Shown piece after piece: positions 23,870 through 41,056 of a stretch of DNA of 41,056 nt. The notes beneath the pieces were generated by a model, which was not told the origin of the DNA, searched no databases, and was given only the letters and a program-made list of their open reading frames with translations. The position numbers were made by a program, and so were the translations under genes. This DNA is from a virus: positions 1-41,056 of IMG/VR virus record IMGVR_UViG_3300017717_001382; one strand, 5' to 3'. Positions within the stretch are counted from its first letter, which is position 1. The number at the start of each line of letters is the position of its first letter.

Positions 23870-24845
23870 TCCCAATAGTTTATCTATAAATCAAATAGCA
23901 GGAGAGTTCGGTGGATCTACTCCGCATTCTCTATCAGAATATTATGCTGGTGGTGATAATGTAGCATCTGGAATACAAGGTGACAGTGGTGGTATTCCAT
24001 CATCAGGTGCAATCTCTATCGGTCAATTTTATGGATCGGCAAATAGAATTAGTATTGCTCTAACAATATCTTCCAATACAAACAACTATCAAATATCTCA
24101 AAACAGAGGTGGAACTTATTCATCAGGTATAACTGACATAGTTCTAACTAACAATGCTCAAGTAGGTTCTAATGCTGTTGGAACTGCTGCACTTGCTACA
24201 GGTGCATCACCCAACTGGGCAACTGGCGACACAATTACTATTGTAAACAATGGTGCATTTAGAGGTCGTGGTGGTGATGGTGGTGGTGGTATGACTTCTG
24301 CAGGTGCATCAGTACAAGCAGGTCAAGCAGCAGGTGATAGTATAGAAATTAATTATCCTGTTACTGTACAAAACACTGCTCCAGGTGATATCTATGCTGG
24401 AGGTGGAGGAGGTGGTGGTGGTGCCAGAGGTTCATCTGTACAACCTGGACAACCTGGAAATCCAGGAAACCCACCAAGTGGTGGTAAGAGTCCATCTCCT
24501 GGACAACCTGGACAACCTGGAAATCCACCAAGTACACAATTCTTCGGAGGAGGAGGAGGTGGCGGTGGTGCTGGATCACAAGCAGGTTCTGGTGGTGCTG
24601 GTCGTAATAGTCAAGGACAAGCAGGACAAGCAGGATCAGCAAATTTAACTAGTGGTGGAGCAGGTGGTAACTCTACTGGGCAAACAAATCCTAATGGTGG
24701 AGCAGGTGGTGCTAATGGTGCTGCTGGAGGACAAGGTACTGGAACAAGTGATGGTGCTGGAGGTGCAGCAGGTAAAGCAATTGAACCAAACGGAAACCAA
24801 TTAACATTAAATAATTCTGGGCAAGTCATTGGAGCAACATCTTAA
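23853..24845 (+). CDS. Polyglycine-rich tail adhesin (putative receptor-binding tip)
   Basis: 330 residues. The N-terminus (SLSINQIAGEFGGSTPHSLS, then GAISIGQFYG) is a common attachment module of marine phage tail proteins. From about residue 135 the sequence is extremely Gly-rich: runs of eight Gly at 183-190 and 232-239, collagen-like GQPGNPGNPP segments (about 199-226), and GGAGG repeats to 306. It ends in a short beta-like tail. Packed polyglycine helices form the receptor-binding tips of gp38-type adhesins in T4 relatives, so a receptor-recognition role is likely (inference). Its 3' end overlaps the next gene by one base. Base composition is G-rich, unlike its AT-rich surroundings, because of the GGN codons. 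Confidence 0.8.
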   Translation: MALPSSPNSLSINQIAGEFGGSTPHSLSEYYAGGDNVASGIQGDSGGIPSSGAISIGQFYGSANRISIALTISSNTNNYQISQNRGGTYSSGITDIVLTNNAQVGSNAVGTAALATGASPNWATGDTITIVNNGAFRGRGGDGGGGMTSAGASVQAGQAAGDSIEINYPVTVQNTAPGDIYAGGGGGGGGARGSSVQPGQPGNPGNPPSGGKSPSPGQPGQPGNPPSTQFFGGGGGGGGAGSQAGSGGAGRNSQGQAGQAGSANLTSGGAGGNSTGQTNPNGGAGGANGAAGGQGTGTSDGAGGAAGKAIEPNGNQLTLNNSGQVIGATS

Positions 24846-28326: not shown

Positions 28327-28771
28327 AAAACTTAAAATTGGATTTGGTCCAAATCATGTTGTTGCCAACAATGGTGTTACAGCATTATCACGATGGGGAT
28401 TCTGGTCTCCATTCTTCACTATCCTAGTATCAAGAATACATCCTATCGACCATGATAAGATGTTCAACAATACACGAAACGATGCTAGAGTAATATATCA
28501 CAGTCACGAAACAAACTTCTTATCATTAATTTTTTGGGGTAAGTATATTGAGGAAAGAAATGTTAATGGTACAATTGTTGTCAAAGAAAGAAAGTGGTTT
28601 AACTATGTGAAACGAGATACCTTTCATAGAATTAAAGCAAAAGATTATGCTTGGTCTATACAAGCAGGTTTTACTAGAGATGAAAAGGTGAAAGTAAAAA
28701 TTAATAATAAAATATATCCACATAGAAGATTGTTTACTATGGGTGGTAGGAGTGATGGAACTTTAGGATGA
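28298..28771 (+). CDS. Cupin-like putative metal-binding protein B
   Basis: 157 residues from ATG 28298 (AAGGGAG at 28281-28287 and GGTGAG just upstream). Paralogue of the gene at 27000: the same opening (MKELFSKICKKLKIG versus MKKLITKIFKNCGIG), GFWSPFFTILVSRIHPI versus GFWTPYLTIFISKIYPI, and the cupin-like core VIYHSHETNFLSLIFWGKYI (His68, His70) with KWFNYVKRDTFHRIKAKD (His110). The family's reaction is unknown; the HxH plus distal His suggests a bound metal. It overlaps the following oxygenase gene by the ATGA type, tying the cassette to the oxygenase cluster. Confidence 0.77.
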   Translation: MKELFSKICKKLKIGFGPNHVVANNGVTALSRWGFWSPFFTILVSRIHPIDHDKMFNNTRNDARVIYHSHETNFLSLIFWGKYIEERNVNGTIVVKERKWFNYVKRDTFHRIKAKDYAWSIQAGFTRDEKVKVKINNKIYPHRRLFTMGGRSDGTLG

Positions 28772-29472
28772 TGAAAGTATTAAATGATGTAGATAGCACT
28801 GATATTGAAAACTATTGGGAAGTAACTAAAAGTGATAGTGAAGTTTTTCCTTACTTGATTGTTGATAATTGGTATAACCCAGAAGAACTAGAATCTGTTT
28901 GGAAAGAACTAGATTTTTATCAGTCTTGTCCTAGACATAAAATTTCTAGAACAGAAGAAAACAATGCACCTGTTGCTCGTGAGATAGATGGTACACCAAA
29001 GAGTAAAGCATTTAGATTTCATTTGTGGGATTTATACTTAACACAAGAGGGTAGAAACTTCTCAAACATATTGAGAAATATGTACAAACAAAGATCGCCT
29101 GAGTTTTATAAGATTGTTGAAGATGCGTTTCCTATTCACCACCATAGTTACAAAGGTACAAATACTGATGGAACTATGATTTCATATTATGAAGATGGTG
29201 ATTATTATAAACCACACATTGACAGTATGATGTTTACTTGTTTGATATGGGTTTACAGAGAACCAAAACAATTTAAAGGTGGCGACCTACGATTACCACA
29301 AGCAGAAAAAACAATAAAAGTTAAGTCTAATCGAATGTTACTCTTTCCGAGTTATTTTTCACATCAAGTAATACCTGTAAAATTTGACAAAGAACCAACA
29401 CAAAGTGGTCTTGGAAGATATTGTATTACACATTTTTATAATTGGGAGTCTAGTAATGTTCAAAGTATATGA
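28768..29472 (+). CDS. 2OG-Fe(II) oxygenase (prolyl-4-hydroxylase-like fold)
   Basis: 234 residues (the second ATG at 28771 is an equally possible start). The double-stranded beta-helix motif is complete: YKPHIDSMMF (His150, Asp152), GGDLRLP, SNRMLLFPSYFSHQV (His199) and GRYCITHFYNW (Arg217). These are the iron ligands and the 2-oxoglutarate contact of the family, which hydroxylates protein side chains or small molecules. The N-terminal half (VFPYLIVDNWYNPEELESVW) is the usual helical support. It is the first of a group of such genes and lies directly after the cupin-like gene. Substrate unknown. Confidence 0.9.
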   Translation: MMKVLNDVDSTDIENYWEVTKSDSEVFPYLIVDNWYNPEELESVWKELDFYQSCPRHKISRTEENNAPVAREIDGTPKSKAFRFHLWDLYLTQEGRNFSNILRNMYKQRSPEFYKIVEDAFPIHHHSYKGTNTDGTMISYYEDGDYYKPHIDSMMFTCLIWVYREPKQFKGGDLRLPQAEKTIKVKSNRMLLFPSYFSHQVIPVKFDKEPTQSGLGRYCITHFYNWESSNVQSI

Positions 29473-29983
29473 TAATGTTTTAGATACACAAATGTTAAAT
29501 TATGTTGACGATTACATTAAAACACTCCCATACTTTCCACATACATCTACTACGATGGATGAGGGTAACTTCTTTGCCACAAATGATTTAAGAGAAGATG
29601 TATTGTTTAATTTTTTAACTAGTGTAATTACAGAGTATAATGACAAACCTTTATTTAAAGAATGTCCACATGTAACAAGAGTATATGTTAATGCTCACAA
29701 TTATGGTAAACACAATGGTGGTCGTTGGCATACTGATGAAGGCGATAATGGTAATGGTTGGTGTAATGCTACAATTATCTTTTATCCACAACAATGGCAA
29801 GTAGACGATCTTGGTGGTACATTATTTAAGAATGGTGATGAAATAGAAACAGTTGATTATGTAAGAAATAGAATGGTAGTATTTCCTGCTAATATGCCAC
29901 ACAAGGCACAACATCATCTTAATAAAAAAACAATGAGATACTCAATCGCATATAAAATGAGAGGTAAACTTAATGATTGGTAA
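29456..29983 (+). CDS. 2OG-Fe(II) oxygenase (prolyl-4-hydroxylase-like), short form
   Basis: 175 residues from ATG 29456, which has GGGAG (29444-29448) upstream and overlaps the previous gene by 17 nt. An in-frame ATG at 29384 would overlap much more and adds a poor N-terminus. Motifs: GGRWHTDEG (His92, Asp94), ATIIFYPQQW, LGGTLFKNGD, VRNRMVVFPANMPHKAQH (His149), MRYSIAYKM (Arg161). All three iron ligands and the 2-oxoglutarate Arg are present, so it should be active. It overlaps the SDR gene by 11 nt. The target is unknown. Confidence 0.9.
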   Translation: MFKVYDNVLDTQMLNYVDDYIKTLPYFPHTSTTMDEGNFFATNDLREDVLFNFLTSVITEYNDKPLFKECPHVTRVYVNAHNYGKHNGGRWHTDEGDNGNGWCNATIIFYPQQWQVDDLGGTLFKNGDEIETVDYVRNRMVVFPANMPHKAQHHLNKKTMRYSIAYKMRGKLNDW

Positions 29984-30671
29984 AACAGCATTAGTGACAG
30001 GTGCGACAAGTGGTATTGGTAATGCTATCGCAAACAAACTAAAACAAAGTGGTGTTAATGTAATTGGTGTTTCCATGACAGAAGAAGATAAACATAAATT
30101 TGATGGTGAATGTATTGTTATAGATTTAACTAATGAGGAACAAATAAAAGAAGAACTTTCTAAGATAGACAAACCAGATATCTTAATTAATTGTGCTGGG
30201 TTTTGTTTAGTCAATAAGAACATTGAAGATACAACTACTCATGATTGGGATTATACATTTGATTGTAATTTAAAATCTATGTTTTTACTAGTAAGAGAAG
30301 TTGTTCCTAGTATGAAAGAAAACAAGTATGGTGTTATTGTAAATATGTCATCAATATATCACAAAGGAGAATCGTTTCAATCTCCATACTCTGCATCTAA
30401 ATCAGCAGTTGTTGGGTTTACTAATTCTCTTGCCAAAGAACTTGGTGAATATAATATAAGAGTACACACTGTATCTCCTGGATATACTAGAACTGATATG
30501 ACAAAGATATGGAGAGACGAAGGGTATGAACCAGAGATTATATCTATGACTCCATTAAGACAGGCAGGAATGCCTGATGATATTGCAAACCTAGTAATCT
30601 TCTTATGTTCAGATGAGGCAAAGTTTATAACAGGTCATGTAAACCATATTGATGGAGGATTGTCTTTATGA
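29973..30671 (+). CDS. Short-chain dehydrogenase/reductase (SDR), FabG-like
   Basis: 232 residues with a complete classical SDR layout: cofactor loop TGATSGIG (9-16), NCAG (73-76), Asn99, catalytic Ser126, Tyr139 and Lys143 in YSASK, SPGYTRTDM (168-176) and the terminal NHIDGG. The family reduces or oxidises carbonyl/hydroxyl groups using NAD(P)H; FabG acts on 3-oxoacyl-ACP and relatives act on sugars and many small molecules. Asp51 in VIDLTN is the usual adenine-contact position. The gene is wedged between oxygenase genes with overlaps at both ends (11 and 4 nt), which suggests that it works in the same pathway (inference). Substrate cannot be read from the sequence. Confidence 0.92.
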   Translation: MIGKTALVTGATSGIGNAIANKLKQSGVNVIGVSMTEEDKHKFDGECIVIDLTNEEQIKEELSKIDKPDILINCAGFCLVNKNIEDTTTHDWDYTFDCNLKSMFLLVREVVPSMKENKYGVIVNMSSIYHKGESFQSPYSASKSAVVGFTNSLAKELGEYNIRVHTVSPGYTRTDMTKIWRDEGYEPEIISMTPLRQAGMPDDIANLVIFLCSDEAKFITGHVNHIDGGLSL

Positions 30672-31396
30672 ATTTATATCATGACTATTATTGGTTTAAA
30701 GAAGCAATCTCTCACGATGTATGTGATGCCATTATAAAGATGGGTGAGAAAAAGTTAAAAGCAATACGAGAAGGTGGTGGAGAGGTCTCTGGTACAACGA
30801 GGAGCAACGATGAAAGACAATCTGGTACAAACTTACCTAGTGTCAAAGAACTAACACCTAAAGAAGCAAAAGAAAAGTTGGGTGACTATTATATCAGAGA
30901 TTGTAATGTAGCATGGTTTAACGACCAATGGTTGTATGATTTAATTTGGCCATATCTAGAAACTGCTAATAGTGAAACAGGTTGGAACTGGGATATAGAT
31001 TGGGCAGAGAGTTTTCAATTTACAAAGTATGACAAAGATGGGTTATATGGTTGGCACAACGATGGTGGTTCAGACCACTTTGGAAAATATATTTTAGGTG
31101 AAGAAGATAAGGAATCAAGCAATCCATATACAGATGATAAAACATTTGAAGGAAAGGTTAGAAAGATAAGCATGACTTTAAATTTATCAAGACCTGAAGA
31201 TTTTGAGGGTGGTGAATTAAAATTTGATTTAGGTAAGACGCATGATACTGGAGTTGATATTATGGAATGTGCAGAAATAAAAGCAAAAGGTTCTATGATA
31301 TTTTTTCCTTCATTTAAACAACATACAGTAACACCGATAACAAAGGGCACTAGATATTCATTAGTGCTTTGGGCATTAGGAAAACCTTGGAGGTAA
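30668..31396 (+). CDS. 2OG-Fe(II) oxygenase (phage prolyl-hydroxylase-like), 242 aa
   Basis: Starts in an ATGA overlap with the SDR gene. Motifs: YGWHNDGG (His130, Asp132), ISMTLNLSRPEDFEGGELKF, GSMIFFPSFKQHTVTPI (His219) and GTRYSLVLWALG (Arg229). The arrangement closely follows the PKHD-type hydroxylases common in T4-like marine phages. The longer spacing between the HxD and the next strand is filled by a charged loop (YILGEEDKESSNPYTDDKTF). All expected active-site residues are present. Substrate unknown. Confidence 0.92.
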   Translation: MNLYHDYYWFKEAISHDVCDAIIKMGEKKLKAIREGGGEVSGTTRSNDERQSGTNLPSVKELTPKEAKEKLGDYYIRDCNVAWFNDQWLYDLIWPYLETANSETGWNWDIDWAESFQFTKYDKDGLYGWHNDGGSDHFGKYILGEEDKESSNPYTDDKTFEGKVRKISMTLNLSRPEDFEGGELKFDLGKTHDTGVDIMECAEIKAKGSMIFFPSFKQHTVTPITKGTRYSLVLWALGKPWR

Positions 31397-31399
31397 AAT

Positions 31400-32092
31400 A
31401 TGTCAATTAGAAAACAGTCGAATGAGTTTTTCAATGAGAATGGTTGGGTTATACTCGACAATTTTCTACAAGACGAAACAACTTTAATATTATATCATCA
31501 CTTGAAGATGTCTGCCCAAAAAGCAAAATATGTTCAAGAAATAGAACCAGATTTATTTGATGATGAACAAGTACATTATGGTGAGTTTAGTGATAGTAAT
31601 TGTTTAAATAAAAAGGTTTGGAACAAATATGCTGAACCAGTTATTGAAACTGTCTTAGCATTAGCAACACCAATGGTCCAAGAACATATGGGTATGAAAC
31701 TTATTCCAACATATAGTTGGTCTAGAATGTATACAGAAGGCACTGAAATGGAAAGACATATTGATAGGAGCGAGTGTATTGTAAGTGGGACACTTTGTTT
31801 AGGATATGACTTATCTAACATGCATGGTGATAAATTAAAGGACACATATTGCTGGCCAATATTCTTTGGTGATAAGAGTGGCAGAAAGAATACGAAAGGA
31901 ACTCCTGTACAATTAACTCCAGGACAATTATGTTTATATAAAGGAACTAAGATTGAACATTGGAGAGAACCATTTAGAGGAGTAGACCACGCACAAGTAT
32001 TTTTACATTGGGTTGAAAATAAAGAAGATAATGTAAATCTGCATTTAGATAGCAGACCTATGTTAGGAATGAACAAGGACTTTGTTAAATAA
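31400..32092 (+). CDS. Putative 2OG-Fe(II) oxygenase, divergent, 230 aa
   Basis: Starts three bases after the previous stop. The core WSRMYTEGTEMERHIDRSE (His120, Asp122), ISGTLCLGYDL-like strand, GTPVQLTPGQLCLYKGTKIE followed by HWREPF (His187) and QVFLHWV is a known phage variant of the oxygenase fold. The usual Arg after the distal His is not at its normal place: the strand reads DHAQVFLHWV (His197), so binding of 2-oxoglutarate may be through another residue (Arg189 or Arg193 are near). It ends in a TAATG overlap with the next gene. Enzymatic activity is likely but less certain than for its neighbours. Confidence 0.82.
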   Translation: MSIRKQSNEFFNENGWVILDNFLQDETTLILYHHLKMSAQKAKYVQEIEPDLFDDEQVHYGEFSDSNCLNKKVWNKYAEPVIETVLALATPMVQEHMGMKLIPTYSWSRMYTEGTEMERHIDRSECIVSGTLCLGYDLSNMHGDKLKDTYCWPIFFGDKSGRKNTKGTPVQLTPGQLCLYKGTKIEHWREPFRGVDHAQVFLHWVENKEDNVNLHLDSRPMLGMNKDFVK

Positions 32093-32682
32093 TGTATCAA
32101 AAACTATTTAAGAAAAAAGAAAAAGAACTGTGTCAGTTTGTTCAAGACTTTCAGATTAATATAACTGAAGAACAAATGTTTGATATACTGAGAATGAAAA
32201 GGAGATGGCCATTCGTACATCCTACTGCACCTGACCAACAACCTACTGTTGAAATAATATCTATGTATGGAGAGAAGCATAGTTATGTAAATGACGGAAC
32301 TGGATTCCTTGATTTCGATAAAATGAAGTCGTTTTATGATAAGGGTTACACTGTATTATTGGCAGATATATTAGACCTTACAGAGGAACTCAGGACTCTT
32401 GAGGAGGAACTTATAGATAGAACTGGTATAGGTAACATACGAGGTAATTTCTATTTTGGTAATGGTAAAAAAGATGTTCATCCTAGTTTCAATTTACATA
32501 ATCATGGGTATAGTGCTATATCAAAACAAATCTATGGTACAAACTATTGGACTGTAGATGACCAAAGGTATAAGTTACATGAACAAGAAATTATACTCGT
32601 TCCTGCTCAAGCATGGCATGAAGTTTACAAGTCAGATGGTAAACGACTTTCACTTACTATAAATTTGGGATATGGTGATTAA
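32092..32682 (+). CDS. JmjC/cupin-like putative oxygenase, 196 aa
   Basis: Starts in a TAATG overlap. No HxD of the P4H type is seen. The segment HPSFNLHNHGYSAISKQIYG followed by TNYW, and later HEQEIILVPAQAWHEVYKSD and LSLTINLGYGD, fits a JmjC/cupin_8-like barrel in which His136/His138 and the distal His176 would bind iron. In JmjC enzymes the first motif is HxD, here it is HNH, so the ligand set is unusual or the protein is a non-catalytic binder. The N-terminal half (VQDFQINITEEQMFDILRMK) is helical. Overlaps the next gene by 11 nt. Confidence 0.7.
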   Translation: MYQKLFKKKEKELCQFVQDFQINITEEQMFDILRMKRRWPFVHPTAPDQQPTVEIISMYGEKHSYVNDGTGFLDFDKMKSFYDKGYTVLLADILDLTEELRTLEEELIDRTGIGNIRGNFYFGNGKKDVHPSFNLHNHGYSAISKQIYGTNYWTVDDQRYKLHEQEIILVPAQAWHEVYKSDGKRLSLTINLGYGD

Positions 32683-33220
32683 TACAATTGACAATTTTCT
32701 AGATGCTAATTATCTAGAAGAATTAAACAATGTTAATCTTTGGGACTTATTACACAAACAAGATATGAAGTGGGTGAGTTTAAGTAACAGACCTACAAAT
32801 ATATTTGAAAGAATAGTATACAAAGAATATAGAAAAACATTTAAAGATACATTTCATAGATATGCTGGATATGAATATTGGAGAGTTAAGATTTCTTCAA
32901 ACTCTACGAATAACTTACCACCACATCAAGACTTAGATGAGACATTACAAAAAAGAACAGGAGTAAAGAAACCTGCTTCATTAAGTACAGTGTTTTATGG
33001 ATATCCACATTTTGTTAAAGGTGGCAATCTAATGTTTGAAGATATGTCTCAATACGAACCAAAATACAACAGACTAATATATTTCAATTCAATTATACAG
33101 CATCAAGTATTGCCTGTAACATTAGGTGATAGATATGCTCTTTCTGTAAACTTTTGGGAAGAAAAACCTGAAGGATATGTTAAAAGTAATTTTAGAATAA
33201 AAAAAAGGGAGTCTGAATAG
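32672..33220 (+). CDS. 2OG-Fe(II) oxygenase, last gene of the accessory cluster
   Basis: 182 residues. Motifs: LPPHQDLDETLQK (His85, Asp87), GGNLMFED (117-124), NRLIYFNSIIQHQVLPV (His144), GDRYALSVNFW (Arg154). The active-site set is complete. The start overlaps the JmjC-like gene by 11 nt. The stop codon (33218-33220) falls inside the hairpin that terminates the opposite-strand alkB gene, so the two convergent genes share their 3' boundary. The C-terminal tail is basic (NFRIKKRESE). Substrate unknown. Confidence 0.9.
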   Translation: MVINTIDNFLDANYLEELNNVNLWDLLHKQDMKWVSLSNRPTNIFERIVYKEYRKTFKDTFHRYAGYEYWRVKISSNSTNNLPPHQDLDETLQKRTGVKKPASLSTVFYGYPHFVKGGNLMFEDMSQYEPKYNRLIYFNSIIQHQVLPVTLGDRYALSVNFWEEKPEGYVKSNFRIKKRESE

Positions 33221-33228
33221 ACTCCCTT
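33201..33228 (-). terminator. Strong intrinsic terminator for the minus-strand alkB gene
   Basis: Perfect 10-bp stem AAGGGAGTCT (33205-33214) / AGACTCCCTT (33219-33228) with a 4-base loop. On the minus strand the stem is followed by a T run (complement of the A run just before 33207), the classic form. On the plus strand the following sequence is only GATTT, so plus-strand termination should be weaker. The alkB stop is about 24 bases upstream. Confidence 0.9.
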
Positions 33229-33251
33229 GATTTAAAAATGATTATGATAAC

Positions 33252-34364
33252 TTATATGGTTTGATAACCTGCTACCTTATTCATCTCTCTTGCTATCTTC
33301 TGCTCACCTTCTGTTGAATCATGCTTATCGATATCTTCTAGATATGGTTCAATAAACTTTCTCCATAGAGGTGGGAATAAAGCAATTGCGAACAATGTAA
33401 AGTATCCGTGACCAGTATTTGGTGCACCTACTTCATCTAACTCCCAGAAGTGTGTTTCTCCACGATCGTGGTGGTCACCTTGACGACCAATCTCAATAAA
33501 GAACCAACTTGTGAAAGCACTGTTTGTATCCCATGAATGTCTGTAGTCAATAGGTTGACCTTTCTCACGGATTAATCCATAGTGCTCCAAGTAGTTAAGT
33601 GTTTCTAACTCGAAGTTGGATATCATCCACATTCCAAACAAACATGCTATTCCTACCCAACCACCTGCGAACCAGAATAATCCGATTGTTGGTAATGCCA
33701 TAGCATAACCTCTTAACCATCTGTTTTGCCATGTTAGGAAAGGTACACCAAGTCTGTTTAGTCTTGATTTCTCCATTAAGAATAAGAACTTAGATTGTCC
33801 TAAACCTGATTTGGGGAAATGTGCCCACAAACTACGACCTCTTGGTGCTGTTGCTGGATCGTCTTCATGTGCTAGTTCTAAATGGTGATTGTATACATGA
33901 GCATAACAGAAGTGTGCTTTAGCAGACAATGCCATCATCCAACGAGCAATTATGAAACTAAATCCTTTAGTATGAGCAAGTTCATGACCATAGATAATTC
34001 CGATACCCAAGAAAATACCTGAAGACATTGTAGCACCAATCAACTGTGAAGTTGTTAATGCGTCTACAGCACCACCTGTGTATTGCCAGATTCTCCATGC
34101 TAATACTGCTTGAAGTAATACAAACACTGGTAACATTGTATACATTACTGCATTTTGGAACAATGGTACACCATTTGTATCTCCGTTTTCATCGAAACCT
34201 GCACCTGGAGTTCTTGTTTTCACTAATGTGTCAACAACAATTCCCATGCCTAGAAGAACAACTCCTGTCCATACAAATGGACCACCTGCGTACACACCAG
34301 CAACTGCTGCAAGTATGAATAGAGGTGCTAGTAAGTAACGAATATTGATTAAAAATTTCTTCAT
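33252..34364 (-). CDS. alkB: AlkB-family membrane di-iron alkane/fatty-acyl hydroxylase
   Basis: 370 residues. The family inserts oxygen at the terminal carbon of alkanes, with electrons from rubredoxin. Histidine motifs are in order: GHELAHTKG (His127, His131), HVYNHHLELAHEDDPATAP (His156, His160, His161), NYLEHYGL (His261) and GRQGDHHDRGETHF (His298, His299). The EDDPATAP and EHYG signatures are specific to AlkB rather than to plain desaturases. One of the nine expected iron-ligand histidines (box 3, RHSDHH) is Gln295 here. Hydrophobic segments lie at about 8-26, 30-47, 72-91, 106-126 and 222-250. The only minus-strand gene, it has its own promoter, AAGGAG ribosome site and terminator. Hand-counted G+C in three 60-base lines is 75/180, above neighbours. 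No rubredoxin gene is in the window. An XylM-like or fatty-acyl substrate is also possible. Confidence 0.9.
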   Translation of the reverse strand: MKKFLINIRYLLAPLFILAAVAGVYAGGPFVWTGVVLLGMGIVVDTLVKTRTPGAGFDENGDTNGVPLFQNAVMYTMLPVFVLLQAVLAWRIWQYTGGAVDALTTSQLIGATMSSGIFLGIGIIYGHELAHTKGFSFIIARWMMALSAKAHFCYAHVYNHHLELAHEDDPATAPRGRSLWAHFPKSGLGQSKFLFLMEKSRLNRLGVPFLTWQNRWLRGYAMALPTIGLFWFAGGWVGIACLFGMWMISNFELETLNYLEHYGLIREKGQPIDYRHSWDTNSAFTSWFFIEIGRQGDHHDRGETHFWELDEVGAPNTGHGYFTLFAIALFPPLWRKFIEPYLEDIDKHDSTEGEQKIAREMNKVAGYQTI

Positions 34365-34398
34365 TTTACTAAACTCCTTTGTTTAATTTACTTCCATG

Positions 34399-34427
34399 AT
34401 TATACTCTATTTACTTAGTTTTGTCAA
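34399..34427 (-). promoter_or_regulatory. Consensus sigma-70-type promoter of alkB
   Basis: On the minus strand: TTGACA (complement of 34422-34427), 17-base spacer, TATAAT (complement of 34399-34404). Both boxes match the bacterial consensus in all six bases. Transcription would start near 34392, giving a leader of about 28 bases with AAGGAG (complement of 34374-34379) before the ATG. This is a host-polymerase promoter, not a T4 late promoter. Confidence 0.85.
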
Positions 34428-34550
34428 TAGATTCCGTATAGATTTATCTATACATTACCTATACTAAATAAAGCAAGATAATACTATTTATTATAATACT
34501 ATACTGAAACGGAATTATCAACCTATACGAAACATATACTTCTAAATTAT
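34428..34550. promoter_or_regulatory. Operator-like spacer between divergent promoters
   Basis: A non-coding spacer between two back-to-back promoters. It holds a perfect palindrome GTATAGA-TTTA-TCTATAC (34436-34453) next to the alkB -35 box, two further CCTATAC half-sites (34458-34464, 34522-34528), and ATAATACTAT at 34478-34487 and 34493-34502, with a third copy at 34575-34584 covering the rightward -10 box. These are typical positions for a regulator's binding sites, but no regulator gene is recognised in the window. Confidence 0.55.
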
Positions 34551-34579
34551 TTGACATTTCTATTCAAGTCGAGTATAAT
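34551..34579 (+). promoter_or_regulatory. Consensus sigma-70-type promoter, rightward
   Basis: TTGACA (34551-34556), 17-base spacer, TATAAT (34574-34579): again a full consensus match. It is 30 bases before the ATG of the small membrane protein. Together with the alkB promoter it forms a divergent pair whose -35 boxes are 123 bases apart. Confidence 0.85.
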
Positions 34580-34608
34580 ACTATAAAATCGTCAGGTAAC
34601 TATTTATT

Positions 34609-34896
34609 ATGCAGAAAATTTATGCCACACTAGAATGGATATCAGCAGACTATCAAACTAATTCATTTAGATTTATAGTTGAAGTTGTCGCTTGGGCACT
34701 TAGTATCGGATGCTCTATTGTCATGGCATTAACTGTACCCAATCCACCATTACTAGAATTATACATAGTTTGGATCTCAGGTTGCTTAATGTACACTTGG
34801 TCAGCATGGACAAGAGGTTCATTTGGTATGCTAGCAAACTATCTCGCCTTAGTTGTTATAGACATTGTGGGTCTAGTTCGCATTATTATTTCTTAA
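34609..34896 (+). CDS. Small three-helix membrane protein, 95 aa
   Basis: Hydrophobic segments at about residues 21-42, 47-66 and 72-94 predict an inner-membrane protein. The stretch MALTVPNPPLLELYIVWISG and the segment SAWTRGSFGMLANYLALVVI recall a small conserved family of phage and bacterial membrane proteins with a PnuC-like flavour (ANY..L...D..GL.R); I recall it only loosely and know of no function. It is transcribed from its own consensus promoter, divergent from alkB. AGG at 34594-34596 is a weak ribosome site. A role beside the membrane-bound AlkB is possible but unproven. Confidence 0.82.
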   Translation: MQKIYATLEWISADYQTNSFRFIVEVVAWALSIGCSIVMALTVPNPPLLELYIVWISGCLMYTWSAWTRGSFGMLANYLALVVIDIVGLVRIIIS

Positions 34897-34914
34897 AGTC
34901 AATACTAATTCTTT

Positions 34915-34922
34915 TATAAATA
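34915..34922 (+). promoter_or_regulatory. T4-type late promoter upstream of the 34959-40734 gene group
   Basis: Exact TATAAATA, 37 bases before the next ATG. It is followed at once by an inverted repeat AGATGT (34922-34927) / ACATCT (34934-34939) that would place a hairpin at the transcript start. No other TATAAATA lies between here and the terminase genes in my reading, so this promoter may serve the whole group. Confidence 0.8.
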
Positions 34923-34958
34923 GATGTGTTAATACATCTAATTGGAGAATTGAGGTAA

Positions 34959-35297
34959 ATGGCAGCAATTTCTAACATCTTCATCGATCAAGGTGCAGAT
35001 TTTTCAACTACAGTCACTGTGTCAGATTCTGCTGGATCTGCTTTAGACTTAACTAATTACACTGCTTTAGCAATGATTAGGAAAACATATGATTCGACAT
35101 CAGCGACTTCATTTACATCAGCATTTGCGACAGACAGAACTACAGGAAAAATAACTATTTCTCTTACAGATGTACAAACGACTGCTTTAGAGCAAGGTCG
35201 TTATGTTTATGACTTATTAATTACAGATGGTAGTGGCGATAAGACCAGAGTTTTAGAAGGCATTGCTACTATAAGTCCAAGTGTATCAAGGAGTTAA
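34959..35297 (+). CDS. Small putative virion structural protein, 112 aa
   Basis: First gene after the late promoter (TTGAGGTAA ribosome site just upstream). The sequence is beta-rich, with alternating Thr/Ser/Val, e.g. GADFSTTVTVSDSAGSALDL and LEQGRYVYDLLITDGSGDKT, typical of a small immunoglobulin-like or fibre-collar domain. From memory, similar short proteins precede repetitive fibre proteins near gp13 in T4-like cyanophages. No enzyme motif is seen. Structural role is inferred from promoter class and position. Confidence 0.78.
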   Translation: MAAISNIFIDQGADFSTTVTVSDSAGSALDLTNYTALAMIRKTYDSTSATSFTSAFATDRTTGKITISLTDVQTTALEQGRYVYDLLITDGSGDKTRVLEGIATISPSVSRS

Positions 35298-35300
35298 GAA

Positions 35301-35573
35301 ATGTCTATTACTGCAACATTAAATAGTGGTACTACAATTCAAGGTTCTATTTCAGAGGGCAAAACTGCTGCTGTAACAAGAGTTACAATACAAGGTCCAA
35401 AAGGTGACACTGGAGAAGCAGCAACTTCATTCGCAGCACTTAGTGATGTGAATACTACAGGTCTCGCTGATGGAGCATTAATACAATATAAATCATCTAC
35501 AGGAAAGTTTACTGCAGTGAACGAAATAGATACTACATCAGGTACTCTTAGAATTACTGGTGGAATATTTTAA
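35301..35573 (+). CDS. Small putative structural protein with a collagen-like segment, 90 aa
   Basis: Starts three bases after the previous stop, with AAGGAG upstream. The N-terminal 30 residues are beta-like (LNSGTTIQGSISEGKTAAV); residues 32-40 are GPKGDTGEA, a short collagen-like stretch often used in phage fibres as a trimeric linker. It is followed by ATSFAALSDVNTTGLADGAL, a motif frequent at the junctions of phage fibre modules. Probably a small fibre or whisker component (inference). Confidence 0.78.
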   Translation: MSITATLNSGTTIQGSISEGKTAAVTRVTIQGPKGDTGEAATSFAALSDVNTTGLADGALIQYKSSTGKFTAVNEIDTTSGTLRITGGIF

Positions 35574-35587
35574 AGGAATAAAAGAAT

Positions 35588-37774
35588 ATGGCAACAACCA
35601 TTCAAGTAAAAAGAACAACTACAGCAAATCTTCCTTCTACACTGGAACAGGGTGAACTTGCTTACATATATGACACATCAGCAGCAGATACAGATGCTGG
35701 TGGTAATGGTGGTCGTCTATTCATAGGGGATCCTACATCAAACAGCAACACTCCATTAAAAGTTGGTGGAAAATATTACACTGATTTAATGGATCACACT
35801 TTAGGAACTGTAACTGCTAGTAAAGCATTACTTGTAGACTCAAATAAAAAACTTAATGAGTTACTTGTAGATAATATTACTATCGATGCTAATACTATTT
35901 CTTCTACAAACTCAAATGGTGACATTATAATAGACCCAAATGGTACTGGTAATGTTAAAGTTGGTAACTTTGAATTTAATGCAGACCAAACTGTTGGGTC
36001 AGGACAAGACAATTATGTTTTAGTGTACGACCACAGTTCAACATCAATTAGTTTAGAAGCAGCAGCATCTAGTTCGTTTACACTATCTGCGGATAGTGGT
36101 TCTAATGACACATTTAGTACAGGTGGAACTTTAACTTTTGATGGTGGTACTGGTATTGACACTACAGTATCTGACGACCAAATATCATTTGCTATTGATA
36201 GTACAGTTGCTACACTTGGTGGAGCACAGGTACTTTCAAACAAAACTATAACTAATCCTATATTAACACCTACTGCTACAACTGCTGGTAAAATAGAATT
36301 CTTAGAGGGTACTAATAACGGAACTAACAAAGTAACATTAATTGGTCCAGCATCGACAGCAGATGTTACAGTAACATTACCTGCTGCTGCAGATACATTA
36401 GTAGGTAAAGCAACAACTGATACATTAACAAACAAAACTATTAATGCTAGTAATAACACATTATCTAACATTGCTAATGCTTCATTAGCAAATAGTTCTA
36501 TCACTGTAAGTGATGGATCTACTACAACTGCTACTGCTTTGGGTGGTACTATAACATTCGCAGCAGGTGAGGGTATGGATGTAGGCGAAAGTTCAGGTAC
36601 AATAACATATTCAGGTGAAGACGCAACTACATCAAATAAAGGTGTTGCTTCATTTAGTAGTGATAATTTTGCTGTATCGTCAGGTGCAGTAACTATTAAA
36701 GATGGTGGTGTTGCTAATGCTGAATTAGCAGGTTCAATAGCAAACTCAAAACTTGCTAACAGTTCTATCACTGTAAGTGATGGATCTAATACTACTGCTA
36801 CTGCTTTGGGTGGAACAATTACTTTCTCTGGTACTGCTAATGAGGTTACAGTAGCAGAAAGTTCTGGTACAATTACAGTTGGTTTGCCAAATGATGTTAC
36901 AATCGGAAATGATTTAGTTGTAACAGGAGATTTCACTGTTAATGGTGATACTACAACTATTGCTACAACAAACAAAGTTTTAACTGACACATTGATTGAG
37001 TTAGCAAACGGAACAACAGGTACTCCATCACATGATGCTGGTATCGTAATAGAAAGAGGTAGTGCAGCAAATGCATTTATAGGTTTTGATGAAAGTGCTG
37101 ATAAATTTATAGTTGGTACTGGTACATTTACTGGTGCTACAACAGGTAACTTATCTATTACAACTGGTACACTTGTTGCTAACTTAGAAGCAACAACTGC
37201 TACATTAGGTGGTGCTGACATTGTTTCTGTTTCTGCTAGTCAGACTTTAACAAACAAGACACTAACTACACCAACACTTACTACACCTATTGCTAATGCT
37301 GGAATACAGTTAAAGAATGGTGCTACTAGTGCTGGTTTCTTAGAGTTCTTTGAAGATTCAGATAATGGTACAAACAAAGTAACATTAATTGGTCCAGCAT
37401 CTACTGGTGATGTTACAGTAGTATTACCTGCTGCTGCAGACACACTTGTTGGTAAAGCAACAACTGATACACTTACAAACAAAACAATCAATGGTCCAGA
37501 TAATACTTTAACAAACATTGCTAATGCTTCGTTAGCAAATAGTTCTATCACTGTAAGTGATGGATCTAATACTACTGCAAGAGCATTAGGAACAACAATA
37601 ACTTTTGCTTCTGGTGAAGGTATAGATGCAACAGAAAGTGGTGGTACAATAACAATTGCTGGTGAATTAGCAACAACATCTAATAAAGGTGTAGCATCAT
37701 TTAGTAGTGATAATTTCACTGTTAGTTCTGGTGCTGTTACAGTAACCACTGTAGATGGCGGAACATACTCATAG
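35588..37774 (+). CDS. Repetitive fibre-like structural protein, 728 aa
   Basis: The N-terminus IQVKRTTTANLPSTLEQGEL followed by AYIYD is the Mtd-N-like attachment module of phage fibres. The body is made of beta modules, with a large duplicated block: VTLIGPASTADVTVTLPAAA ... DTLTNKTIN ... NIANASLANSSITVSDGS ... TTSNKGVASFSSDNF, once at about residues 236-375 and again at about 585-722. A third partial copy (SKLANSSITVSDGSNTTATA) lies between. The C-terminus is abrupt (VDGGTYS) with no S74 domain, so it may be longer in relatives or end in a separate tip. Likely a fibre or whisker anchored near the neck, judging from the following gp13 (inference). Confidence 0.85.
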   Translation: MATTIQVKRTTTANLPSTLEQGELAYIYDTSAADTDAGGNGGRLFIGDPTSNSNTPLKVGGKYYTDLMDHTLGTVTASKALLVDSNKKLNELLVDNITIDANTISSTNSNGDIIIDPNGTGNVKVGNFEFNADQTVGSGQDNYVLVYDHSSTSISLEAAASSSFTLSADSGSNDTFSTGGTLTFDGGTGIDTTVSDDQISFAIDSTVATLGGAQVLSNKTITNPILTPTATTAGKIEFLEGTNNGTNKVTLIGPASTADVTVTLPAAADTLVGKATTDTLTNKTINASNNTLSNIANASLANSSITVSDGSTTTATALGGTITFAAGEGMDVGESSGTITYSGEDATTSNKGVASFSSDNFAVSSGAVTIKDGGVANAELAGSIANSKLANSSITVSDGSNTTATALGGTITFSGTANEVTVAESSGTITVGLPNDVTIGNDLVVTGDFTVNGDTTTIATTNKVLTDTLIELANGTTGTPSHDAGIVIERGSAANAFIGFDESADKFIVGTGTFTGATTGNLSITTGTLVANLEATTATLGGADIVSVSASQTLTNKTLTTPTLTTPIANAGIQLKNGATSAGFLEFFEDSDNGTNKVTLIGPASTGDVTVVLPAAADTLVGKATTDTLTNKTINGPDNTLTNIANASLANSSITVSDGSNTTARALGTTITFASGEGIDATESGGTITIAGELATTSNKGVASFSSDNFTVSSGAVTVTTVDGGTYS
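36292..36710 (+). repeat. Fibre module duplication, copy 1
   Basis: Encodes the IEFLEGTNNGTNKVTLIGPA through SSGAVTIKDGG block. It aligns with 37337-37745 with long identical DNA stretches (for example around the GTAACATTAATTGGTCCAGC segment in both). Boundaries are approximate. Confidence 0.75.
37337..37745 (+). repeat. Fibre module duplication, copy 2
   Basis: Second copy of the block at 36292-36710 (LEFFEDSDNGTNKVTLIGPA to SSGAVTVTT). Boundaries are approximate. Confidence 0.75.
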
Positions 37775-37783
37775 GATAATTAA

Positions 37784-38599
37784 ATGGCAATCCCAAGTAC
37801 AAAATCAACATTTAAAGAATACTGTTTAAGAGCATTAGGTAAACCTGTAATAGAAATTAATGTCGATCCCGACCAAGTAGACGATCGTATAGATGAAGGA
37901 TTACAATATTTTGCTCAATATCATTATGATGGTATTGAAAGAATGTTTCTTAAACATAAAATAACTGCTGCAGAAATTGCTAGAGCAGCAACTAATGCTA
38001 CTACAACAGCAACAGACACTGCTGATAATAGCATTACTGCTAATTGGTTAGAAGGCAAAGGATTTATTCCTATTCCTTCCCCTGTAGTTTCTATAGTTCA
38101 AGTATTTCCATTTGATGACTCGTCAACTAACAATATGTTTGATATGCGTTATCAATTAAGATTAAATGATTTATACGATTTCTCATCAACATCACTTGTT
38201 CATTATGAAATGACAATGAGTCATTTAGACCACCTATCACATTTATTAGTAGGTGAAAAACCACTTCGTTTCAATCAACACCAAGACAGATTATACATTG
38301 ATATGGATTGGGCGAACGATGTGGCGGAAGATGACTTTATCGTTATTGAGTGTTTTAGAAAAGTAGATCCTGATACATATACTGATATTTGGGATGACAT
38401 TTTCTTAAAGAAATATTGTACTCAATTAATTAAAAGGCAATGGGGAGCAAACCTTTCCAAGTTTCAAGGAATCCAGATGCTGGGTGGTGTACAAATGAAT
38501 GGTGAACAAATATACCAACAAGCAACAGAAGAGATTCAAAAACTGGAAGAACAGATACAACTTGCTTATGAGTTGCCTCCTATGTATCAAATAGGATAA
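37784..38599 (+). CDS. 13: gp13 neck protein (head completion)
   Basis: 271 residues (T4 gp13 is 309). Diagnostic stretches: FKEYCLRALGKPVIEINVDP, DQVDDRIDEGLQYFAQYHYD (T4 [20 protein letters not shown]), DFIVIECFRKVDP (T4 DLIIVESWTKS) and LIKRQWGANLSKFQGIQMLG followed by VQMNGEQIYQQA (T4 [32 protein letters not shown]). gp13 forms the neck ring that seals the filled head and joins it to the tail. A Thr/Ala-rich insert (ATNATTTATDTADN, about 69-82) is unlike T4. Five bases separate it from gp14. Confidence 0.94.
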   Translation: MAIPSTKSTFKEYCLRALGKPVIEINVDPDQVDDRIDEGLQYFAQYHYDGIERMFLKHKITAAEIARAATNATTTATDTADNSITANWLEGKGFIPIPSPVVSIVQVFPFDDSSTNNMFDMRYQLRLNDLYDFSSTSLVHYEMTMSHLDHLSHLLVGEKPLRFNQHQDRLYIDMDWANDVAEDDFIVIECFRKVDPDTYTDIWDDIFLKKYCTQLIKRQWGANLSKFQGIQMLGGVQMNGEQIYQQATEEIQKLEEQIQLAYELPPMYQIG

Positions 38600-38603
38600 G
38601 GCA

Positions 38604-39476
38604 ATGCCAACAAATGTATATTTTGACACAGGAACTGTTAGAGAACAAGAACTCTATGAAGATTTAATTATAGAGCAACTTCGTATATATGGTCAAGATG
38701 TATACTATATTCCTCGTAACATTGCTTCAAAAGATTCTATTTTAGGTGAAGAAGATTTCTCAACTTTCGATGATGCATACTTGATAGAAATGTATATTGA
38801 GAATGTAGATGGTTACGAAGGGCAAAAAGAACTGATGTCTCAGTTTGGTTTAGAAATAAGAGATGAAACAACATTTATAGTTTCAAGAAGAAGATGGGAA
38901 CAGTTTGTATCACAAGACTCAAACCTTACCACAAGCACTAGACCAAATGAAGGAGATTTAATTTATTTCCCTAAAGGTAAAAGATTATTCGAAATAGGTT
39001 TCGTAGACCATGACGATCCTTTTTATCAAGTCCATAATTTACCAACATATAAACTCAAGTGTAGAACATTTGAATATGGTTCTGAAGACTTTGATACTGG
39101 TATTAGTGAAATAGATGGTATAGATGATGCGTTAAGCATAGACTCTATGCAACATCAATTTACTATGGAGCAATCAACTGCTCAAAACGAAAATATTACA
39201 ATACAACATGCTCAAGGAAGTTATGGTGTATTATTAGAAGAAACTGATGGTGATAACATCACTATGGAAAATGACTCTACTTCAGTTGGTGAAAGTATAT
39301 TACTTGAAAATGATACTGACGCAGATGATTCTGATTACTTGATACAAGAAGACTATATAGTAGGAGATGGTGTAAACGATAAGTCTGCACAGAATGCTAT
39401 ATTTGATACACAAGATGATAATGTATTAGACTTTACAGAGTCTAACCCATTCGGAGATCCAGGAGTAAATGAATAA
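38604..39476 (+). CDS. 14: gp14 neck protein with LLE-repeat C-terminal region
   Basis: 290 residues. The N-terminal part matches gp14: LYEDLIIEQLRIYGQDVYYI, PRNIASKDSILGED-like segment, VDGYEGQKELMSQFGLEIRD (T4 FEGYEGQNSFFSNFGMQVQD) and RRRWEQFV. Residues 175-290 are acidic and carry degenerate units of the kind GVLLEETDGDNITMENDSTS and ESILLENDTDADDSDYLIQE, much like the repeats in the large wedge protein at 7764-12434. gp14 is part of the neck collar with gp13. It overlaps gp15 by one base (TAATG). Confidence 0.93.
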   Translation: MPTNVYFDTGTVREQELYEDLIIEQLRIYGQDVYYIPRNIASKDSILGEEDFSTFDDAYLIEMYIENVDGYEGQKELMSQFGLEIRDETTFIVSRRRWEQFVSQDSNLTTSTRPNEGDLIYFPKGKRLFEIGFVDHDDPFYQVHNLPTYKLKCRTFEYGSEDFDTGISEIDGIDDALSIDSMQHQFTMEQSTAQNENITIQHAQGSYGVLLEETDGDNITMENDSTSVGESILLENDTDADDSDYLIQEDYIVGDGVNDKSAQNAIFDTQDDNVLDFTESNPFGDPGVNE

Positions 39477-40285
39477 TGTTAGGTAATAGACAATTTTATC
39501 ACGAAACAGTAAGAAATATTGTAGTGGCATTTGGTACACTATTTAATGACTTGCACATCGTGAAGAAAAATAGTAGTGGAAGAGTTACACAATCTATGAA
39601 GGTGCCATTAGCATATGGACCAAAACAAAAATGGTTAGGAAGGTTAGACCAAGATGCTAATTTAGATAGCAAGGTTGCTATTACACTTCCTAGATTAGGA
39701 TTTGAAATACAAAACTTACAATACGATCCTACTAGAAAGTTAAATCGTGTACAAAAGTTTAAAAAAGTAAAATCAAGTTCAAGCGATTCTAGTAAATTAG
39801 ATACACAATATATGCCAGTTCCTTATAATTTAAACATACAATTATATGCTATGGCAAAACAATCTGATGATGCATTACAAATAGTTGAACAAGTATTACC
39901 ATTCTTTCAACCAGACTATACATTAACAATTAATGATATGGCAGATATGGGTGTCGCAAGAGATATTCCTATTGTATTAAATGGTATTGACTATGAAGAT
40001 AGTTACAAAGGCGATTATGGTGAAAGAAGAGCAATTATATACACATTAGACTTTACTACTAAATTCTTTCTATATGGACCAGTTACCTCTAGCAAGGTTA
40101 TTAAAACTGTTCAAGTCGACCAATATACAGATTTACCTGATACTGCTCCGAAAAGAGAACAAAGGTATTCTGTTACACCTTCGCCAACAACTGCTGATGC
40201 CGATGATGACTTCGGATTTAATGAAACAGTATCTTTCTTTGAAGATGCTAAAAACTTTGATGAGGAAAGTGGCACTGACAAATAG
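39476..40285 (+). CDS. 15: gp15 tail terminator / proximal sheath stabiliser
   Basis: 269 residues (T4 gp15 is 272). Matches: RQFYHETVRNIVVAFGTLFN, IVEQVLPFFQPDYTLTIND (T4 IVEQILPYFQPHFNTTMYE), the IPIVLNGIDYEDSYKGDYGE region and the YTLDFTTKFFLYGPV strand (T4 WSLTFEVNGWMYPPV). gp15 caps the tail tube and sheath at the head-proximal end. It starts inside the gp14 stop codon and is followed after 8 bases by the small terminase. Confidence 0.94.
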   Translation: MLGNRQFYHETVRNIVVAFGTLFNDLHIVKKNSSGRVTQSMKVPLAYGPKQKWLGRLDQDANLDSKVAITLPRLGFEIQNLQYDPTRKLNRVQKFKKVKSSSSDSSKLDTQYMPVPYNLNIQLYAMAKQSDDALQIVEQVLPFFQPDYTLTINDMADMGVARDIPIVLNGIDYEDSYKGDYGERRAIIYTLDFTTKFFLYGPVTSSKVIKTVQVDQYTDLPDTAPKREQRYSVTPSPTTADADDDFGFNETVSFFEDAKNFDEESGTDK

Positions 40286-40293
40286 GACACATT

Positions 40294-40734
40294 ATGAGCA
40301 CTAAAGATATATTAAATGAAGCATTGAATATTGATGACAAGTCAGAGTTAATCACAAAAGATGAAACCATACCTGTTGTTCCAAGACCTAAAGAAAACTT
40401 GGAAGATATGGATGCTGACTACAAATATCAAAGAGAAAATTTTTATAATTTAATTGAACGAGGTTCGGATGCTATCGAAGGTATACTAGATCTCGCTCGT
40501 GAGTCTGAACATCCAAGATCTTATGAAGTTGCTGGTCAACTTATTAAACAAGTTGCTGAGGTAACTGAAAAACTTGGCGACCTTCAAACTAAAATGAAGA
40601 AGTTAAAAGAAGTTCCTAAAGATGCACCACAGAATGTGACCAACGCATTGTTTGTAGGTAGTACAAAAGAATTACAAAAGATATTAAAAGGCAAACTTCA
40701 AGAGATAGATGATGTCGACAACAAAGGCAAGTGA
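40294..40734 (+). CDS. 16: gp16 small terminase subunit
   Basis: 146 residues (T4 gp16 is 164). The central helices (DYKYQRENFYNLIERGSDAI, ILDLARESEHPRSYEVAGQL, IKQVAEVTEKLGDLQTKMKK) match the gp16 pattern, including the R.NF..LI..G..A...L...A..S.HPR.YEV motif typical of T4-like small terminases. It forms rings that recognise the DNA and stimulate the gp17 ATPase. The 3' end overlaps gp17 by about 25 nt, as in other T4-like phages. Confidence 0.94.
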   Translation: MSTKDILNEALNIDDKSELITKDETIPVVPRPKENLEDMDADYKYQRENFYNLIERGSDAIEGILDLARESEHPRSYEVAGQLIKQVAEVTEKLGDLQTKMKKLKEVPKDAPQNVTNALFVGSTKELQKILKGKLQEIDDVDNKGK

Positions 40735-41056
40735 TAATCAATATTTAGGAAATCCTAATTTAAAAAAGACTAATGTTCCCTTTGAGTACACTGAGGAGCA
40801 GGTTGCCGAATACGCAAAGTGTATGCAGGATCCAGTATACTTTATAGAAACATATATGCGTATTGTTTCTCTTGATGAAGGTCTTGTACCATTTAATATG
40901 TACAACTTTCAAAAAGAAATGGTTGGTACATTTCACAACAATCGTTTTACTATATGTAAACTACCCAGACAGTCTGGTAAATCTACTGTTATGATTTCTT
41001 ATCTATTGCACTATGCACTATTTAATCCAAGTGTAAACATAGCTATACTTGCAAAC
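40709..41056 (+). CDS. 17: gp17 large terminase subunit, N-terminal part (cut by window edge)
   Basis: 116 codons are visible from ATG 40709 (an adjacent in-frame ATG at 40712 is equally good). PFNMYNFQKEMV (about 61-72) is the adenine-binding region. TICKLPRQSGKSTVMISYLL (81-100) contains the Walker A motif; T4 gp17 has TICNLSRQLGKTTVVAIFLA at the same place. The motor packages DNA into the head and its nuclease part, beyond the window, cuts the concatemer. It begins inside the gp16 gene, so translation is coupled. Confidence 0.95.
   Translation, partial: MMSTTKASDNQYLGNPNLKKTNVPFEYTEEQVAEYAKCMQDPVYFIETYMRIVSLDEGLVPFNMYNFQKEMVGTFHNNRFTICKLPRQSGKSTVMISYLLHYALFNPSVNIAILAN

Follow-up and report, generated by a model that had tools for sequence, protein, structure and literature searches.

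Phage genes that change the lipids or hydrocarbons of the host are known, and they are few. Cyanophage lipid desaturases were reportedly described by Roitman et al. in 2018, and the phage set of Ru et al. 2023 is said to include alkane-hydroxylase families. Sea-ice and brine phages carry desaturases (PMC7300359), and aquatic phage genes have been assigned to hydrocarbon oxidation (Ru et al. 2023, as cited in PMC13343209). In AlkB, the alkane 1-monooxygenase, nine ligand histidines are arranged in four motifs, the last of the form H-x-x-H-H, and are invariant and indispensable (PMC10110569). Front-end desaturases are recognised by a glutamine in the last histidine box (PMC4404247).

Here, we analysed a 41,056-nt stretch of viral DNA (IMG/VR record IMGVR_UViG_3300017717_001382), hereafter the window, which belongs to a marine, T4-like phage. 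A minus-strand open reading frame at 33252–34364 with an ATG start encodes a protein of 370 aa, exactly where the first-pass annotation had placed an alkB gene. We assign the product to a clade of AlkB/XylM-like membrane non-haem di-iron oxygenases, referred to below as the Gln-box clade. Annotation of both flanks confirms that the gene lies between an oxygenase cluster and late structural genes. To the left, a FabG-like SDR (29973–30671) is embedded in a dense cluster of cupin-like and 2OG-Fe(II) oxygenase genes (28768–33220); the GenBank phage matches of the SDR are all distant, at <37% identity among the best matches listed. To the right, beyond a gene for a 95-aa membrane protein, T4-like late genes follow (L-shaped tail-fibre assembly at 34959, head closure at 38604). 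Elsewhere in the window, a tail-fibre-like gene (35588–37774) contains a ~420-bp internal repeat (36274–36693 and 37321–37740, 79.5% identical), and a Gly-rich, probably tail-associated protein of 330 aa is encoded at 23853–24845 with unusually high G+C (0.447).

The arrangement recurs in another metagenome, where a contig (L001) is 99.5% identical to positions 30411–41056 (53 differences), a stretch that includes both junctions of the oxygenase gene. Two further contigs repeat the right junction at ~76–80% identity (L002, L011), and another repeats the left (L070). A chimeric assembly, the danger named in the first-pass annotation, is therefore excluded, and in dozens of other phage contigs a relative adjoins genes for terminase, capsid or neck proteins, so that we give next to no credence to a chimera or to host DNA binned as viral by mistake. 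The feature that would fit such an error is that the gene is richer in G+C than its surroundings (0.396, GC3 0.288, versus 0.334, sd 0.033, and GC3 0.184, sd 0.042, in the remaining long ORFs). This contrast, previously taken as a sign of acquisition from a host, is real but modest, and as an argument for acquisition it is weak because a bacterial copy (L017), in a genome similar in composition to the window, likewise exceeds its neighbours (0.377 versus 0.324). The L001 terminase is closest to that of the Methylophilales phage Melnitz (72.5% identity) and shares 68% identity with that of pelagiphage HTVC008M.

Assignment of the predicted protein to the membrane oxygenases is well supported by sequence and by modelling. 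A PDB sequence search matched two solved AlkB chains at levels well above chance (8f6t_A, E 4e-32; 8sbb_A, E 2e-30), and the Pfam match is the FA_desaturase superfamily; neither PHROGs nor NCBIfam held a matching family. An AlphaFold2 model built on 46 relatives (pLDDT 82, pTM 0.85) is weakest at residues 281–310, which include box 3 (pLDDT 52–61). Nearly its full length aligns with AlkB–AlkG 8f6t (Z 37.8, 352 residues, 2.6 Å) and with the AlkB cryo-EM structure 8sbb (Z 35.2). The confident matches of a structure search were AlkB only, with no solved desaturase among them. The Pfam match, the glutamine of the last histidine box described below, the existence of desaturases in phages and the presence of FabA near many bacterial copies would all suit an enzyme that desaturates fatty-acyl chains and makes the host membrane more fluid, the role suggested for desaturases of cyanophages and sea-ice phages. 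We regard such a desaturase as unlikely: fold and sequence match AlkB and XylM, both hydroxylases, the AlkB fold is described as unlike that of SCD1-type desaturases (PMC10110569), and tblastn at 1e-5 recovered no cyanophage desaturase. With an AlkB fold and AlkB sequence matches, the protein is also not the desaturase lacking AlkB signatures against which the first-pass annotation had warned.

The predicted metal-site residues are H127, H131, H156, H160, H161, H261, Q295, H298 and H299. All nine positions are invariant in 46 non-redundant relatives, and E260, which corresponds to the Glu conserved in NYxEHYG of AlkB, is nearly so. In the last box, the first histidine is replaced by glutamine (Q295), giving RQGDHH in the window protein and RQ[AGC]DHH in every relative that covers the site, whether from phages or bacteria. 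Histidine is kept at the equivalent position in true AlkB (RHSDHH), in XylM (NHINHH) and in a XylA–XylM fusion from Polaromonas (RHSHHH). The glutamine shared by the clade and front-end desaturases is probably convergent. Q295 could lower or abolish activity, and the loss of an otherwise conserved ligand might indicate a degenerate or non-catalytic membrane protein. This we consider highly improbable, because the glutamine is invariant rather than drifting, the eight ligand histidines are retained throughout, front-end desaturases have glutamine at the same point of the box (PMC4404247), and the gene is under strong purifying selection (dN/dS 0.04–0.19 in 18 measurable pairs).

A tree built from 76 proteins supports the Gln-box clade at 100/100 and sets it on a long stem (1.7 changes per column). 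The clade falls outside the AlkB clade, itself supported at 100/100, and next to XylM at 89/86. The grouping with XylM is tentative: the data also accommodate the Gln-box clade beside AlkB (AU p 0.47), and the three may branch in more than one order. By sequence, the protein is best placed in a family related to, but distinct from, alkane-degrading AlkB, for which the name AlkB is too narrow. The identification as AlkB therefore stands for the fold and for the di-iron membrane oxygenase class, but not for the clade, which is separate and has glutamine for a ligand histidine. Similarly, the motifs once listed as AlkB-specific (HELAH, HVYNHH, EDDPATAP, NYLEHYG and GDHH) are all present, but only NYxEHYG has the AlkB form.

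These data also bear on whether the gene encodes a true alkane 1-monooxygenase, with which the phage would boost alkane degradation by the host for energy. The AlkB fold, NYxEHYG with its Glu conserved, 27–31% identity to AlkB proteins and, close to the Methylophaga copy, an outer-membrane protein resembling FadL/TodX agree with such an enzyme. Nonetheless, we find it quite unlikely: three of the four AlkB histidine boxes deviate (HELAHT, AHVYNHH and RQGDHH), glutamine stands in every member read for one of nine histidines reported as indispensable in AlkB (PMC10110569), the protein lies outside the AlkB clade, NCBIfam is without a match, and the bacterial copies have a 2Fe-2S donor, GST and globin for neighbours, not rubredoxin or alk genes.

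A scan of GTDB genomes yielded 44 loci, 43 of them in the Gln-box clade. All nameable bacterial loci are gammaproteobacterial (Thiotrichaceae, Methylophaga, Kangiella, SAR86 and Halieaceae). About twelve of the 274 Gammaproteobacteria sampled contain the clade, and among 398 Pseudomonadota sampled only the centre genome does; phages apart, no homolog of it was seen outside Gammaproteobacteria in the genomes sampled. A [2Fe-2S] ferredoxin or XylA-type reductase lies near the oxygenase in 12 of the 43 clade loci, and a reductase is also found beside it at L144, L145, L147 and L151. Rubredoxin, sought at the locus only, is near the oxygenase in none of the 43 bacterial clade loci and in no viral locus, and ~0.97 Mb of viral loci contained no ferredoxin, rubredoxin or reductase motif.

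The bacterial neighbourhoods differ in composition. In the Methylophaga group (L055, Methylophaga sulfidovorans), the oxygenase gene is accompanied by those for a XylA-like 2Fe-2S reductase, a truncated globin, GST-like proteins, a FadL/TodX-like porin and a membrane protein of 70 aa, while the Kangiella and SAR86 group has a stand-alone 2Fe-2S ferredoxin and a third group a divergent MerR-type regulator and FabA. The ferredoxin and reductase neighbours without rubredoxin therefore point to an XylM-like electron supply. Because of these neighbour genes, and because some of the relatives are kept in one or two copies by genomes near 1 Mb, we infer that the bacterial clade serves something other than specialist alkane growth. 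The role in alkane metabolism originally proposed is not supported as stated; the bacterial relatives include the methylotroph genus Methylophaga and genomes of ~1 Mb. An operon-like gammaproteobacterial set surrounds the oxygenase at L144:2328–5247, L147:155–3895 and L055:6001–11206; its members, not all present at each locus, are the oxygenase, truncated globin, GST-like proteins, XylA-like 2Fe-2S reductase, 70-aa membrane protein and FadL-like porin. One protein encoded on a Polaromonas plasmid (L130:2567–4825) is annotated 'fatty acid desaturase' but joins a XylA-type reductase and a XylM-like hydroxylase in a single chain; its gene clusters with those for a GMC oxidoreductase, an acyl-CoA ligase and an aldehyde dehydrogenase. 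Second AlkB-like proteins of 717–832 aa, with a long uncharacterised C-terminal region, are encoded close to the Gln-box gene in sponge-symbiont-like genomes (L016:10985–13137, L025:9430–11880, L027:10163–12661 and L045:10454–12928).

Relatives of the oxygenase are encoded on at least 198 IMG/VR contigs, and 80 loci were kept. Among 50,697 GenBank phage records, no genuine phage had a relative, and the two matches were Acinetobacter-phage records with true AlkB. We rejected these as phage carriers: CAKLQH020000011 (Acinetobacter phage MD-2021a in INPHARED; L135) reads as a bacterial contig, apparently chromosomal, with isc, siderophore and alkB genes, and CAKLQF020000009 gives the same alkB match. 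The genomic setting varies widely. The gene stands beside the oxygenase cluster in the window, L001 and L070, beside neck genes in the T4-like L003, L065 and L057, and next to Gp23 in the T4-like L007. It is found in a group with gp32-like and tail-tube genes (L061), beside a T7-like terminase and internal virion protein (L096), in a terminase/portal group (L088, L076) and in a DUF6267 group (L105), and it adjoins another terminase in L059 and a ribonucleotide reductase in L008. Lipase_3 genes lie near the oxygenase in one phage group, a hint at lipid remodelling that proves nothing. Genes observed near phage oxygenases include a class 3 lipase (L102:5681–6490), an aminotransferase-family gene resembling 5-aminolevulinate synthase (L110:4490–5689) and a ribose-phosphate pyrophosphokinase (L126:3972–4931).

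Phage and bacterial sequences interleave in the Gln-box clade, and the window sequence falls in a group of 28 phage and gammaproteobacterial rows, at a fork that the tree does not resolve. A single phage clade is 127 log-likelihood units worse and is rejected (AU p=0.0002), and with it a single phage origin. Phages of different types have taken the oxygenase several times from marine gammaproteobacteria. Acquisition from marine bacteria, as first suggested, is thus borne out by the placement of phage copies among gammaproteobacterial sequences; the single phage branch predicted inside bacterial AlkB is not, as the copies form several branches in a gammaproteobacterial clade outside AlkB.

The oxygenase gene is preceded by a perfect sigma-70 promoter match (TTGACA-17-TATAAT; 34399–34427, minus strand), with the −10 element 34 nt before the ATG, and is followed by a predicted intrinsic terminator (33205–33228, minus strand) formed by a 10-bp stem and a T run. 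A second perfect TTGACA-17-TATAAT match (34551–34579, plus strand) precedes the divergently transcribed gene for the 95-aa membrane protein (34609–34896, plus strand). No other site in the window scores 12/12; 0.07 such sites are expected by chance, and none of 100 shuffles had two. In other phage groups, promoters with 11 or 12 of 12 matches precede the oxygenase gene (L009, L065, L116, L123 and L125), and the GGGAGTCT/AGACTCCC terminator stem also lies 3′ of it in L057 and L058. The gene is antisense to the late genes in the window, and L058 carries the same pair of oxygenase and 95-aa genes and the same stem in reversed orientation relative to the late genes. The T4 late promoter TATAAATA occurs at 8 sites in the window versus 7 expected, none of them upstream of the oxygenase gene.

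The 95-aa gene also adjoins the oxygenase in L001, L002 and L058. Of the 45 IMG/VR contigs with 95-aa relatives, only those with the three closest (91–100%) also carry the oxygenase; a two-gene functional cassette was rejected as a general arrangement, and the 95-aa protein is probably a passenger, being usually found without the oxygenase. The oxygenase gene itself reads as a self-contained, moron-like unit: it is an extra gene with its own predicted promoter and terminator, and Melnitz has no counterpart annotated directly 5′ of its equivalent tail-fibre gene.

We think it fairly likely that the phage supplies a terminal oxygenase that borrows host ferredoxin and oxidises a fatty or hydrocarbon chain in the host. 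Host RNA polymerase would read the unit early in infection, a timing suggested by its own promoter and terminator and by its antisense orientation to the late genes. The protein would then insert into the host inner membrane and draw its electrons from the host's own [2Fe-2S] ferredoxin or XylA-type reductase, since the phage loci read carry neither. Its target would be the hydrophobic chain of a lipid or hydrocarbon in the host, oxygenated by hydroxylation rather than desaturation, with a host lipid, presumably of the membrane, as the most likely substrate. We know of no measured activity for the Gln-box clade. A broader proposal, which we offer tentatively, is that this clade constitutes a separate family of membrane di-iron enzymes whose substrate is a lipid and not an alkane, with ferredoxin, globin and GST partners of its own in marine gammaproteobacteria, and that unrelated marine phages repeatedly took only the terminal oxygenase, as an early moron that alters the host membrane.

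The oxygenase is a good test of what membrane-lipid oxidation provides for marine phages, because it is widespread, captured several times, donor-less in the loci read and absent from the GenBank phages searched. The His-to-Gln exchange in an AlkB-fold enzyme, which parallels front-end desaturases, offers a handle on hydroxylation versus desaturation in the superfamily. When the literature was searched for auxiliary metabolic genes of phages that encode AlkB, XylM or an alkane monooxygenase, only PMC13343209 emerged, a review that cites Ru et al. 2023, and the main text of one marine auxiliary-gene survey mentions none of the three. As seen through that citing review, the Ru et al. set possibly overlaps with the oxygenase family and may not describe the Gln-box clade, its cassette form or its repeated capture. 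Phage hydrocarbon genes and phage desaturases have thus already been reported; judged against these sources, the Gln-box clade and its cassette form appear new.

When compared with AlkB (8f6t, 8sbb), the oxygenase shares the fold over nearly the whole chain, the four-motif layout, NYxEHYG and an inner-membrane di-iron site. The clade differs in box 1 (HELAHT versus HELGHK), box 2 (AHVYNHH versus EHxxGHH) and box 3 (RQ[AGC]DHH versus RHSDHH), and its loci are without the rubredoxin that serves AlkB as a fused or adjacent donor. XylM, the hydroxylase subunit of xylene monooxygenase from TOL plasmid pWW0, is similar in length, has a box 2 that also starts with AH (AHVNTHH) and has a similar C-terminal motif (WDxxxASEGE / WDQRYATPGE), and Gln-box relatives adjoin XylA-type 2Fe-2S reductases; it differs by its 27% identity, by a box 3 that keeps histidine (NHINHH) and by NYFQHYG. 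Phage fatty-acid desaturases are likewise phage-carried membrane di-iron enzymes thought to change host lipids, but those of sea-ice and brine phages are linked to stearoyl-CoA desaturase (PMC7300359), whereas the window protein has the AlkB fold.
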